In this document: positions 19,027 to 22,733 of the stretch, in pieces
Position numbering within the stretch: the stretch's first letter is position 1
Layout: each line of letters opens with the position of its first letter
From: Rhodospirillales bacterium
Lineage (GTDB): Bacteria > Pseudomonadota > Alphaproteobacteria > BOG-932 > Roseiterribacteraceae
Assembly: GCA_028291365.1 (NCBI GenBank)
Contig: JAQGIE010000047.1
Location: 1 to 39,678 of the forward strand
Direction: 5' to 3'
Length of the DNA stretch: 39,678 nucleotides
The notes under the pieces: generated by a model
What the model saw: only the letters and a program-made list of their open reading frames with translations
Database searches by the model: none
What the model was told of the DNA's origin: nothing
Made by a program: the position numbers and the translations under genes

Positions 19027-21192
19027 ATGAGATTCCGCACCTTCTACCTCGCGCTCCCGACGCTGCTTGGTTTCGGCCTGCCCGAAACCGCGTCGGCCCA
19101 GATCGAAGAAATCGTCGTCACCGCGCGCCAGCGTGCTGAAAAACTGCGCGACGTGCCCGCCACGGTGACCGTTCTGGACGAACAGACGATTGCGCGGGCA
19201 AGGATCGACTCGCTGGCCGAAGTGGCGGCGCGCGTGCCGGGCTTTGTGATTTCCGATCCATTCGGGCGATTGAACCCGTCGCCGGCGGTTCGCGGCCTGG
19301 TGCAGGCCGGCATCGGCGACGAGCCCAATGTCGGGCTGTTTCTCGACGGCACCTATGTCGGCGGCCGCTCGTCGATCAACGGCCTGTTGTTCGATCTGGA
19401 AAGGATCGAAGTCGTGAAGGGCCCACAATCGGCTCTTTACGGACGCAATACGTTCGGCGGCGCGATCAACCTGTTGCAGAAGCAGCCGACCGACCAGATC
19501 GACGGCTATGTCGAAGGCACGGTCGGCACGCATTCGCGCTACGAGGTGAAGGGCGCCGTCGGCGGACCGATCGTCGACGGCAAGCTGTCCGCGCGAATTG
19601 CCGCGGTGTGGCACGATTTCGGCGGCTTCTATCGCAACCAGGCCGGCGGCACGCTGGGCGACCAGATGACTCGCGCCGTAACATTGGCGCTGCGCTTCAC
19701 GCCGTCCGACGCGCTCGAAATCCTGGCGCGCAGCACCTACTCGCTCGATCGCGACCAGCAGCCCCCGCTCTATCCGCTGCAACCGAACTGCTCGGCGACG
19801 CTGCCGAGCGGCCCGTTCAAGCTCTATTGCGGTGAAGTGCCGGCGCGAAGCGGCCCGTTCGCGGTCAACAACTACCCGTACGGCTTGTTGCGCGAAACTG
19901 CGCGCCAGACGCTGCAGGCAACCTTGTCGCTCGGCGACGTATCGCTGCGTTCGCTGAGTTCGTTCGCGCAGGACCAGTCGAATTTCGTGCGCGACGACGA
20001 TTACACGCCGGTGCTGGACTTCACGCGCCAGCAATCGACGACGCGCAAGGATCTGCAGCAGGATGTGCGGCTGCAGAGCATCGATGGCGGCCCGCTGACC
20101 TGGCTCGCCGGCGCCAACTACTATCGTTTCCAGAACGATATCCGTCAGCGCGACATCAACAATTTCCTCGGCCTGCCGCCGGCCGGCCCGCGCTCGATCA
20201 CCACCACGACCGCGGTGGCGGGCTACGGCTCGGCGACGTGGCGCGTGCGTCCCGACGTCTCGCTGACCGGTGAGTTGCGCTTTTCCGACGAGCGCAAAAG
20301 CTTCGTCAGCGAAATTCTCGACCGCAACGGGCGACCGCTCGATCTCGAGGCGCGCTGGACGAGTTGGACGCCGAAATTCGCCGCCACCTGGGACGTGAGT
20401 CGCGACGCGACGCTGTATGCGTCGGTGGCGCGCGGCTTCAAGACCGGCGGCTTCAACGACATGACCAACCTGTTCGATTCCCAGCGTGCCTATCAGCCGG
20501 AAACGAACTGGACCTATGAAGTCGGCGCCAAGACGAGCTGGCTCGATCGCCGCCTCCAGGCCGACCTCTCGCTGTTCTGGATCGACTGGAGCAACCAGCA
20601 GGTCAGCGCCTCGAGCGCCGCCGGCCAGAGCCTCAATTTCTACAACACGAATGCGGGCGCAACGACGAGCAAAGGGTTCGAGCTGGCGTTGCGGGCCAAG
20701 CCCACCGAGCGCTGGTCGATCGATGTCGGCTATGCCTTCACCGACGCGCGGTTCGATTCCTACAGCGATCCCGATCTCGCCAACGCCGCGGGATTCGCGC
20801 CGACCGGCTCGGTCGCGGACCATCTGCTGCCGCGCTATTCGCGCAACCAGGTCTCGGCGAGCACCGAATACCGGACCCCGATCGAAGGGCTGGGCCGCGA
20901 CCTCGATGGCTATGTCAGGCTCGAAGGCACCTGGCAGTCGAAGCAATATGCCGAGGCCTCGAACACTGCCTATGTCGGTGACGACACCAAGCTGAACGCC
21001 CGAATCGGCCTGGTCGGCGGGCCGTGGGAGCTGTCGCTCTGGGTGAAGAACCTGACCGACGACCTCACCCCGCCGGTGGTGATCCGCTTCAACACCCGCC
21101 AGCAAGGCACCGCGACCCGCGCATTCCTGGTCGAAGCGGCCGACGGGCGTACCTTTGGCGCCACCTTCCGCTGGCATTTTGCCGGACGTTAG
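19027..21192 (+). CDS. TonB-dependent outer-membrane receptor
   Basis: This 721-residue protein has a signal peptide cleaved near TASA-QI, followed at once by a TonB box-like IEEIVVTARQR. The plug domain carries VPATVTVLDEQTIARA ... VRGLVQAGIGDEPNVGLFLDGTYVGGR ... DLERIEVVKGPQSALYGRNTFGGAINL. A 22-strand barrel ends in GATFRWHFAGR; the final aromatic is set back from the last residue. This type imports iron chelates, vitamins, plant compounds or sugars with TonB energy. No neighbouring uptake or degradation genes identify the ligand, though the divergent liv importer could share regulation. Confidence 0.94.
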   Translation: MRFRTFYLALPTLLGFGLPETASAQIEEIVVTARQRAEKLRDVPATVTVLDEQTIARARIDSLAEVAARVPGFVISDPFGRLNPSPAVRGLVQAGIGDEPNVGLFLDGTYVGGRSSINGLLFDLERIEVVKGPQSALYGRNTFGGAINLLQKQPTDQIDGYVEGTVGTHSRYEVKGAVGGPIVDGKLSARIAAVWHDFGGFYRNQAGGTLGDQMTRAVTLALRFTPSDALEILARSTYSLDRDQQPPLYPLQPNCSATLPSGPFKLYCGEVPARSGPFAVNNYPYGLLRETARQTLQATLSLGDVSLRSLSSFAQDQSNFVRDDDYTPVLDFTRQQSTTRKDLQQDVRLQSIDGGPLTWLAGANYYRFQNDIRQRDINNFLGLPPAGPRSITTTTAVAGYGSATWRVRPDVSLTGELRFSDERKSFVSEILDRNGRPLDLEARWTSWTPKFAATWDVSRDATLYASVARGFKTGGFNDMTNLFDSQRAYQPETNWTYEVGAKTSWLDRRLQADLSLFWIDWSNQQVSASSAAGQSLNFYNTNAGATTSKGFELALRAKPTERWSIDVGYAFTDARFDSYSDPDLANAAGFAPTGSVADHLLPRYSRNQVSASTEYRTPIEGLGRDLDGYVRLEGTWQSKQYAEASNTAYVGDDTKLNARIGLVGGPWELSLWVKNLTDDLTPPVVIRFNTRQQGTATRAFLVEAADGRTFGATFRWHFAGR

Positions 21193-21265
21193 GCCCGCGA
21201 CTGCGGGCCATCTGGGCCACAGGAGCAAGCCGATTTCGCTTCGCGAAGGCGGCGGGCGATTTTTT
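21192..21265 (+). terminator. Terminator region of the TonB-receptor gene
   Basis: A perfect 7-bp hairpin GGCCCGC/GCGGGCC (21192-21209) begins at the stop codon. A longer 11-bp stem with one mismatch follows (21229-21239 with 21243-21253), then T6 at 21260-21265. The second is a convincing intrinsic terminator. Confidence 0.7.
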
Positions 21266-21267
21266 AA

Positions 21268-21602
21268 CTTGAATTCAAGGGCGATCGGGGCGATATGGCC
21301 CCCGATCGCTAACGCGCACGTGCCGCTGGCCCTCGTCGCTGCCTTTGAGGCCCGACCTGCTGGTTTATGCAACGACGCAACGCGTATCCACCGACCGTCC
21401 CTTAAGCAAGGCGGCGTCTTGGAGGGTATGATGTTGAAAGTTGTTGTCGGTGGGCACACGCCCATCCCGATTCCTGTCCGAGCCGAGTTTCTCGCTGACG
21501 ACGCGTGTCTCACGCGCCGATCAGCCTGATTCGCGCCCGCCTTTCCGCACTTGGAAGACAAGAACCTGGATCGCCCCTCGGGGCGAGTTGGGAGCCGTTG
21601 CT
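21268..21602 (+). promoter_or_regulatory. Structured 5' leader of the decarboxylase gene (speF-type candidate)
   Basis: About 335 bp separate the upstream terminator from the decarboxylase ATG. Within it are a 12-bp palindrome CTTGAATTCAAG (21268-21279), a perfect 10-bp stem hairpin (21281-21290 with 21300-21309) and a short ORF with its own ribosome site (21431-21529). A GC hairpin (TCGCCC/GGGCGA, 21571-21586) ends 3 nt before the decarboxylase Shine-Dalgarno GGGAG (21590-21594). A leader RNA family named speF has been described upstream of alphaproteobacterial ornithine decarboxylase genes. I propose this is a member or relative but cannot test the covariance model. Confidence 0.5.
21431..21529 (+). 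CDS. Candidate leader peptide upstream of the decarboxylase
   Basis: This is a 32-codon ORF (33 if the immediately preceding ATG at 21428 is used). It begins MLKVVVGGHTPIPIPV and ends CLTRRSA. GGAGG at 21421-21425 is placed 5 nt before the ATG at 21431, a better ribosome site than many genes in the window have. It ends 73 bp before the decarboxylase ATG. Gammaproteobacterial speF genes are controlled by an ornithine-sensing leader peptide of similar length (SpeFL), but I see no obvious sequence likeness. Its function as a sensor peptide is inferred from placement. Confidence 0.45.
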   Translation: MLKVVVGGHTPIPIPVRAEFLADDACLTRRSA

Positions 21603-22733
21603 ATGACCGCTAAAATCGCCCGCTACTTCGCCGAACGACGACCGGTCACACCGTGCCTGGTGGTGGACCTCGACGTCGTCGAGGAGAACTTCAAGAACCT
21701 GCGCAAGGCGCTGCCCGATTCGGCGATCTATTACGCCGTGAAGGCCAACCCGGCGCCCGAGATCCTGACCCTGCTCGCGCGCCTGGGCTCGAGCTTCGAT
21801 ACGGCGAGCGTCGCCGAGATCGACATGGTGCTGGCGGCGGGCGCGACGGCCGAGCGGATCAGCTACGGCAACACGATCAAGAAAGAGTGCGACATTGCCG
21901 CCGCCTTTGCGCGCGGCGTGCGCCTCTATGCCTTCGACAGCGAAGCCGAGCTGGAAAAGATCGCCCGCGCGGCGCCGGGCAGCGAAGTCTTCTGCCGCAT
22001 CCTGACCTCGGGCAACGGCGCCGACTGGCCGCTGAGCCGCAAGTTCGGCTGCGACGTCGCGATGGCCAAGTCGCTGCTGCTGAAGGCGCGCGAGATGAAC
22101 GTCGAGCCGATCGGCGCGTCGTTCCATGTCGGCTCGCAGCAGCGCGATCCGAAACAGTGGGACGAGGCGCTGGCGCAGACCGCCAACCTGTTCCGCGAGC
22201 TCGAGGCTGACGGCCTGACCCTTCGCATGGTCAATCTCGGCGGCGGCTTCCCGGCCAAGTACAAGAAGTCGGTTCCGACTGCGAAACAGTACGGCATCGC
22301 GATCACCGACGCGCTGCGCCGTCATTTCGGCAACCGTATTCCCGAGACCATCATCGAGCCGGGACGCGGCATGGTCGGCAATGCGGGCGTGATCCAGACC
22401 GAGGTCGTGCTGATCAGCAAGAAGTCGGAAAATGACGAGCGGAGTTGGGTGTTCCTCGACATCGGCAAGTTCGGCGGCCTGGCCGAGACGATGGACGAGG
22501 CGATCCAGTACCCGCTGGTCGTCAACGGCCGCCAGGGCACGCCCAAGCCCGTGATCATCGCCGGCCCGACCTGCGACAGCGCCGACGTGCTCTATGAAAA
22601 GGCCGACTATCGCCTGCCCGAAGACCTGGCGATCGGCGACAAGATCGAAATCTTGGCGACAGGGGCCTACACGACGACGTACTCTGCCGTGGCGTTTAAC
22701 GGCTTCGAGCCGCTAAAAGCGCATTACATCTAA
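21603..22733 (+). CDS. Ornithine/lysine decarboxylase, type III PLP (eukaryotic-type ODC fold)
   Basis: This 376-residue enzyme converts ornithine (putrescine) and possibly lysine (cadaverine), using PLP. The PLP lysine is in YYAVKANPAPE (Lys ~44). SFDTASVAEID, SFHVGSQ, the glycine loop NLGGGFP, IIEPGRGMVG and GPTCDSADVLYEK (active-site Cys-Asp) with AYTTTYS at the C-terminus are all present. The length fits bacterial alanine-racemase-fold ODCs (~375-400). The ATG at 21603 has GGGAG 8 nt upstream and follows the leader described above. Ornithine versus lysine preference cannot be decided by eye. Confidence 0.93.
   Translation: MTAKIARYFAERRPVTPCLVVDLDVVEENFKNLRKALPDSAIYYAVKANPAPEILTLLARLGSSFDTASVAEIDMVLAAGATAERISYGNTIKKECDIAAAFARGVRLYAFDSEAELEKIARAAPGSEVFCRILTSGNGADWPLSRKFGCDVAMAKSLLLKAREMNVEPIGASFHVGSQQRDPKQWDEALAQTANLFRELEADGLTLRMVNLGGGFPAKYKKSVPTAKQYGIAITDALRRHFGNRIPETIIEPGRGMVGNAGVIQTEVVLISKKSENDERSWVFLDIGKFGGLAETMDEAIQYPLVVNGRQGTPKPVIIAGPTCDSADVLYEKADYRLPEDLAIGDKIEILATGAYTTTYSAVAFNGFEPLKAHYI

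Follow-up and report, generated by a model that had tools for sequence, protein, structure and literature searches.

In enterobacteria, a short ORF in the speF leader (SpeFL/Orf34) precedes the gene for ornithine decarboxylase, and the SpeF enzyme is of another fold type than the PF02784 decarboxylases. The function of the speF leader RNA was left open in 2005, the ligand tests having been negative, and the accessible text of PMC1273637 reports no ligand binding for the Agrobacterium speF RNA. A locus named smrC45 (speF) is listed in a 2008 survey of S. meliloti sRNAs (PMC2573895, in excerpt). According to the accessible sections of a study of Bartonella bacilliformis, the RNA ar45 (Smr45C) is expressed independently of the speF leader that lies immediately downstream (PMC7717549), as had been reported earlier in S. 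meliloti (PMC2573895, PMC7717549); ar45 is filed as an sRNA, and these papers, in their accessible parts, leave its function open. In the portion available of Brewer et al. (2021), odc1 (uORF-25-1) is an alphaproteobacterial ornithine decarboxylase (ODC) motif with a Shine-Dalgarno sequence (SD) in a stem and a uORF that begins with UUG; it has a pair of UUG starts separated by 2 nt, and its peptide is always 11 aa long (PMC8632094).

The window analysed here is a stretch of 39,678 nucleotides from a Rhodospirillales bacterium in which a leader of about 300 nt, if the promoter that we placed by eye is right, lies between a long ORF (19027-21192) and odc (21603-22733). The initial annotation had described a perfect 10-bp hairpin, a 32-codon upstream ORF led by an SD, and a GC hairpin adjoining the SD of the decarboxylase gene, and all three are present as described, the last of them just 5' of GGGAG. 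The features are as follows:

21268-21299, plus strand: putative promoter, CTTGAA (21268-21273) and GATATG (21292-21297), proposed by eye
21281-21309, unstranded: perfect 10-bp inverted repeat (21281-21290 with 21300-21309, 100% complementary), overlapping the putative -10 box
21316-21324, plus strand: GCACGUGCC, 5' conserved leader box, also in the Bartonella ar45 region
21325-21364, plus strand: P1 hairpin of variable length (fold)
21369-21377, plus strand: GCAACGACG, near-invariant strand, 5' arm of P0 (alignments and fold)
21378-21436, plus strand: P2/P3 stem-loop, predicted to pair the uORF SD and start region (21378-21382 with 21432-21436, 21383-21389 with 21424-21430, 21391-21394 with 21419-21422, 21396-21399 with 21413-21416, 21400-21403 with 21408-21411)
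21421-21425, plus strand: uORF SD, GGAGG, mostly paired in the fold
21431-21529, plus strand: uORF of 32 codons, ATG at 21431, TGA at 21527-21529, peptide MLKVVVGGHTPIPIPVRAEFLADDACLTRRSA*
21440-21447, plus strand: GUUGUUGU, Val codons, 3' arm of P0 with 21369-21376 as partner (fold; enrichment across leaders)
21449-21466, plus strand: P4 hairpin in uORF codons 7-12 (21449-21455 with 21460-21466; compensatory changes)
21499-21519, plus strand: hairpin near the 3' end of the uORF (its last third), arms of 9 nt, 89% complementary; an equivalent stem can be drawn by eye in strain TMPK1
21571-21586, plus strand: 7-bp GC hairpin 5' of the odc SD (21571-21577 with 21580-21586); by eye, a shorter version in TMPK1
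21590-21594, plus strand: GGGAG, likely odc SD
21603-22733, plus strand: odc, ornithine decarboxylase, type III PLP decarboxylase of 376 aa (Pfam PF02784/PF00278)

The nearest relative found is Rhodospirillales bacterium TMPK1, a genus mate whose ODC is 97% identical and whose leader is identical over 122 nt (21362-21483). At the place of the putative promoter, CTTT..TAT is common to the relatives; a sigma-70 consensus scan did not list this promoter, its sole match (21588-21616) lying over the odc start. Because the 10-bp repeat overlaps the putative -10 box, it may lie 5' of the transcript; by eye, it is partly kept in TMPK1 and was seen in no other relative among those listed. (Just 5' of the leader, at 21240-21256, a terminator-like stem with a T run perhaps terminates the upstream gene; 0.8 matches of this kind are expected by chance in the scan.) Note that a second in-frame ATG (21428) stands directly 5' of the uORF ATG and that most relatives carry ACG at this position, which argues that 21431 is the homologous uORF start. 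The best matches of the odc product among solved structures are lysine/ornithine decarboxylases, and no NCBIfam curated cut-off is reached.

Compared by description only, the enterobacterial SpeFL/Orf34 arrangement resembles the window in that a short ORF precedes an ornithine decarboxylase gene, and differs from it in the enzyme, which in the window is of the PF02784 type. As far as the accessible account goes, odc1 resembles the window leader in that it is alphaproteobacterial, stands before ODC, holds its SD inside a stem and has a uORF attached; the uORF of the window, in contrast, starts with ATG, encodes 32 aa and ends 73 nt before an odc that also starts with ATG. Judged by its start codons (ATG, with no UUG pair) and its peptide of 32 rather than 11 aa, the window leader is not odc1. 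In the loci compared there was no SD-preceded UUGnnUUG with an ORF of 8-14 aa, and no odc1-like family appeared in an Rfam scan of 14 loci. (Three loci, L153, L166 and L184, carry in the last 250 nt before odc a variant leader, CACGU(G/A)CC plus G(C/U)AACGAGG, that is perhaps related to odc1; it had no Rfam match at E<=0.5.) With Rfam ar45 (RF02347) and speF (RF00518), the window has in common the boxes GCACGUGCC and GCAACGACG and the position before an ODC of the same protein family, the difference being that it matches neither model. At gathering, speF has no match in the window, ar45 has none in the whole window genome, and 18 of the 20 loci scanned are without any Rfam match. The leader region (21193-21720) has no Rfam match at E<=5, and at E<=0.5 over 14 loci the leader was matched only in two ar45 loci. 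The earlier proposal of a regulated polyamine-gene leader beside a speF motif therefore stands in part: the leader is conserved, its uORF frame is kept in related genera and the RNA is kin to speF, but the Rfam speF match itself is missing.

To describe the spread of the leader we compared a first set of 80 loci that had been fetched by ODC similarity. The leader is strongly conserved in Azospirillum, Niveispirillum, Skermanella and several uncultured Rhodospirillales, and the plan of the element is GCACGUGCC...GCAACGACG...anti-SD hairpin...AUG. Where a gene for homospermidine synthase (hss) lies 5' of odc, the same boxes stand upstream of hss; the window's own homospermidine synthase locus is without them. 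(Some record names may be wrong, which is a guess from the leaders: the Asaia bogorensis MAG L012 and the Rhizobium sp. Q54 MAG L018 have the look of the hss-odc type, and the leader of the Magnetospirillum MAG L041 is identical to those of Azospirillum.)

Two covariance models were used, R1 built from 33 window-type leaders and R2 from 34 other leaders, the window excluded and only the divergent L076, L077 and L100 being of the window type. R1 matched 47 of the 385 genomes of the class and R2 matched 67, including the window genome, whose leader scored 41.7 bits (E 9.6e-6; the calibration of R2 was short, so that E-values are rough). The fact that the window leader is found by a model built without it argues for conservation beyond chance. 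Strong ODC matches (E<=1e-70) occurred at 143 places in 134 of the 385 genomes, and an R1, R2 or ar45 match lay within 4 kb upstream, on the same strand, at 74 of these places (70 of the 134 genomes); at the other 69 places the models found no element, though a few of those have one by eye or by another scan. The 89 R2 matches divide into 49 that lie less than 600 nt from ODC, 12 at 600-4000 nt (assigned by distance to ODC, whatever gene may lie between) and 28 away from a strong ODC, 19 of which precede an ODC-like paralogue (30-36% identity) or hss and one of which precedes speD-speE. The hss label was based on context and a saccharopine-dehydrogenase fold, NCBIfam having given no name. Among the 83 R2 matches examined (89 minus the contig-end L199, L202 and L212 and minus G370:C290, G118:C29 and G225:C74), a polyamine gene (odc, odc paralogue, hss or speD-speE) lies downstream in 81. 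In a control across the phylum, in which the share of genomes from outside the class is not given, 11 of 299 genomes matched, all of them of the same class. Over 55 loci, R2 gave 23 matches, four at E >0.1 (L189, L155, L164 and L180) not being counted. In the literature searched, most subscription papers being outside our reach, we found no account of such a leader before hss or in Rhodospirillales and none that links the window-type leader to ar45 or speF, which is weak evidence of novelty.

Several single loci deserve mention. The match before speD-speE is at L204 (125-1859; AdoMet_dc, Spermine_synth). At L116 (1501-2480; the same place as L196), the AUG of the element opens a class-I glutamine amidotransferase, for which a link to polyamines is a guess. 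At L197 (minus strand), the AUG of the R2 match, near 2438, opens a 136-aa ORF of no recognised kind, and no polyamine gene was recognised in the flanking stretch examined. Genome G228 has two odc genes, on contigs C51 and C74, one behind an ar45-type and one behind a general-type leader.

The models also bear on the relation between ar45 and speF. In the class sample, each of the 12 ar45 matches above the cut-off is followed within 600 nt by an ODC gene on the same strand (a thirteenth, in G261, fell below the cut-off, was not near ODC and was excluded). R2, built without ar45-type loci, matched 15 of 15 of them (L084-L086 and L140-L151; 14 with a scored ar45 match plus L086, which was not scanned with Rfam), at E 5e-5 to 0.02. 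R1 hardly recognises ar45-type leaders: it gave 6 matches in 26 loci (best E 0.005), and only L140 and L146 among these are ar45-scored loci. In the Bartonella loci L084 and L085, Rfam ar45 falls on the boxes, and Rfam speF follows directly; a scripted search of the three Bartonella loci gave no ATG with an SD at the corresponding position. R2 spans the ar45/speF boundary in all four loci in which both families were scored (L084, L085, L141 and L146); in L141, for example, R2 covers 1504-1641, ar45 1501-1584 and speF 1594-1750. By eye, the SD-side helix has its 5' arm, CUUUUUUGGU, in ar45 and its 3' arm, ACUGAAGAGG, in speF. (Where the two families abut, as at L084 1572-1877 and L141 1501-1750, the family boundary seems to cut one helix.) Because R2 runs across the boundary and the helix arms are split between the families, Rfam would appear to divide one leader, and on these comparisons ar45 and speF look like halves of it. 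Earlier publications already place ar45 and speF at one locus; what is added here is the reading as two halves of one leader. This reading names the RNA to study, which is the whole element with the AUG and first codons, and names its output, which would be initiation at that AUG. Many other Alphaproteobacteria carry relatives of the element, upstream of odc, hss and speD-speE, that no Rfam family matches.

We examined the helices by covariation, enrichment and folding. In 34 general-type leaders, P1-P3 were paired in 86.3% of cells compared with 83.1% in shuffles (0/500), and 27 cells were changed on both sides compared with 8.8 (0/500); note that the structure under test was drawn from one of the rows scored. 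Neither the pairs with a double change (6 vs 4.6; 142/500 shuffles) nor the pair types (31 vs 29; 114/500) were more numerous than in shuffles. Slid controls were all lower in cells paired, in doubly changed cells and in covariation score, and three of them exceeded P1-P3 in doubly changed pairs (7, 9 and 9 vs 6). These doubly changed pairs fall in P2 (two) and P3 (four); none falls in P1, which in the relatives is paired in 92.9% of cells with no pair changed on both sides. In the window-type leaders, RNAalifold gave 21 pairs, none of them changed on both sides.

P0, the pairing of GCAACGACG with the codons right after the AUG, was tested by enrichment. At least five contiguous pairs were possible in 33 of 54 distinct leaders, where ten control windows gave 3-8 of 54. 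Among representatives the count was 30 of 50, and seven control windows gave 3-6 of 50. In the window, P0 joins 21369-21376 to 21440-21447, and in L116 GCUACGAC pairs with GUUGUAGC. (A partner of GCACGUGCC downstream of the AUG, a 5-bp pairing in the window fold, was rejected because it showed no enrichment across leaders.) Over 56 window-type rows, the P4 stretch exceeded its shuffles in stability by 4.9 kcal/mol; offset windows from +30 onward gave between +0.4 and -1.9, and the overlapping +5 window gave -4.4. In P4, 6 of 8 pairs had compensatory changes (0/500 shuffles; further pair types 8/500) in 20 rows chosen among 36 distinct window-type windows. Because these rows were picked after the folds had been seen and divergent hairpins were left out, this count overstates uniformity; the rows omitted were near-duplicates (L027, L036, L043 and L052) or had shorter or shifted hairpins (L016, L019, L025, L033, L034, L064, L065, L067, L068, L069, L071 and L072).

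What stands behind the element varies. In window-type leaders the AUG opens a leader ORF, the ORF behind it is 13-16 codons long in 7 of 9 hss leaders, and in 13 loci (L119, L126, L129, L131, L132, L134, L169, L190, L215-L218 and L220) it opens ODC itself. Since the AUG opens a leader ORF in the one type and ODC in the 13 loci, the constant output would be initiation at the AUG. Twenty window-type leaders were folded, and in every one the SD of the uORF was mostly paired, with a probability of 0.02-0.47 of being unpaired. With the family, its distribution, its gene association, the helices and the frame conservation in relatives all computed here, our main reading, to which we give a probability of roughly 0.6, is that the leader is a cis-acting RNA, present across many Alphaproteobacteria and tied to polyamine-synthesis genes, that gates initiation at the first AUG behind it.

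How such gating might work can be proposed from the predicted structure. With GCAACGACG paired to the opening codons behind the AUG (P0) and the SD paired in P2/P3, the start codon would come to lie within one long closed stem. Taking a polyamine as the signal, we infer that the stem would be closed and the AUG silent when polyamines are plentiful and that the stem would open when they are scarce. In leaders that have a uORF, its translation would then let ribosomes reach or unmask the odc start by translational coupling; for the sign of regulation to be the same in such leaders, odc would have to be translated better when the uORF is translated. In folds in which the uORF was cleared, exposure of the odc SD rose in several Azospirillum leaders, for example from 0.02 to 0.41 (L030), from 0.00 to 0.37 (L031) and from 0.01 to 0.51 (L032); it hardly altered in the window (0.36 to 0.37), and several other leaders were likewise without coupling. 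It is conceivable, and we offer it tentatively as rather less probable than its negation, that ar45 and speF, and perhaps odc1 as well, all derive from a single ancient polyamine-responsive translation switch of the Alphaproteobacteria, acting on ODC, an ODC paralogue, hss and speD-speE. In the window form the switch would no longer be tied to the start of the enzyme and would drive a leader ORF instead, the first codons of which also serve as helix arms. Such a switch would possibly be a true polyamine riboswitch that acts with the ribosome.

The uORF might instead matter for its peptide. According to this alternative, which we regard as unlikely, the 32-residue peptide, while still in the tunnel of the ribosome, would respond to ornithine or a polyamine as an arrest peptide like SpeFL, stall the ribosome and so control odc. 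The reading frame speaks for it. A (C/T)CAGTAT or TAAGTAC motif near the uORF end was found in 45 of the 100 leaders scanned, and its distance to the AUG takes nine values that are all equal modulo 3 in 45 of 45 leaders; many of these leaders are closely related to one another, and neither the window nor TMPK1 belongs to this set. (Counts on the uORF left out L125 and L130, and L116 in the end-motif scan; no uORF start was assigned in L037 and L084-L086, and 100-101 of 107 rows were used.) A codon-substitution score, computed on peptide-guided alignments that favour frame 0, was specific to frame 0 in the 'bog' group (z 3.9, no gaps) and in Niveispirillum (z 3.3) and was weaker in Skermanella (z 2.2). 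It was not significant in Azospirillum (p 0.135 and 0.09), in group D (0.06 and 0.315) or in the pair of the window and TMPK1 (0.125 and 0.265, with 11 changed codons). Judging from the motif distances and these substitutions, the uORF frame is under selection in related genera. For the frame of the window itself, two sequences, both lacking the end motif, are too few to show this. In addition, the C-termini of the Azospirillum uORFs share S-S-M/I.

The peptide sequence argues the other way. Half of the final 14 residues (7) are not the same in the window and TMPK1, which also differ by a single 3-nt indel but retain the stop. RNA pairing accounts for most of the conservation in the N-terminal half (VVVGG...), the VVV and GG falling largely to P0 and P4, and in L040 the peptide is altered at P4 and the helix is kept. 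Behind the same RNA in other families stand unrelated ORFs, down to 9 codons (9-16 codons in 15 of 103), or ODC. The idea that the peptide is conserved as a leader peptide is therefore not borne out. Its proposed refutation, an RNA kept while the frame is lost, gave a divided answer: class-wide, the RNA stays and the ORF changes, whereas related genera keep the frame. Gating of initiation by the RNA remains our preferred reading, and the uORF is a small ORF whose 'conserved peptide' would be mostly RNA structure, a caution for uORF annotation. (A class-wide Arg-x-Arg motif in residues 9-20 occurred in 10 of 45 representatives vs 4.6 expected, p 0.015; because the other frames give 6 and 8, no class-wide peptide motif is claimed.)

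Somewhat less probable still is that the leader is a transcription attenuator that ends early as an ar45-like short RNA, with P2 as the antiterminator. The independent expression of ar45 described in the accessible parts of PMC7717549 and PMC2573895 would agree with it, and fits premature ends of one transcript; likewise, most of the ar45 leaders compared have five or six consecutive U in the 5' arm of P2. The equivalent arm in the window, however, lacks such a run, and the only match of the terminator scan (21240-21256) lies upstream, none being inside the leader. That an ar45-like RNA is made at the locus to act in trans, its place before odc being incidental, is very improbable, for although Rfam lists ar45 as 'Gene; sRNA' and Hfq co-immunoprecipitation in S. 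meliloti is quoted in the accessible text of PMC7717549, ODC lies downstream on the same strand for 12 of 12 above-cut-off ar45 matches and for 61 of 89 R2 matches, and an SD and AUG are built into the structure.

Three minor observations may be added. The Azospirillum peptide stretch '..TRLRN' resembles some ODC N-termini. About 0.5 kb upstream of the odc leader in L169, at 1521-1572, there is a sub-threshold match to the Guanidine-II riboswitch (30 bits; gathering 32). Finally, about 130 nt before odc in L084 and L085, short ORF-like stretches share SFG(Y/F)WQL and are possibly another leader peptide.
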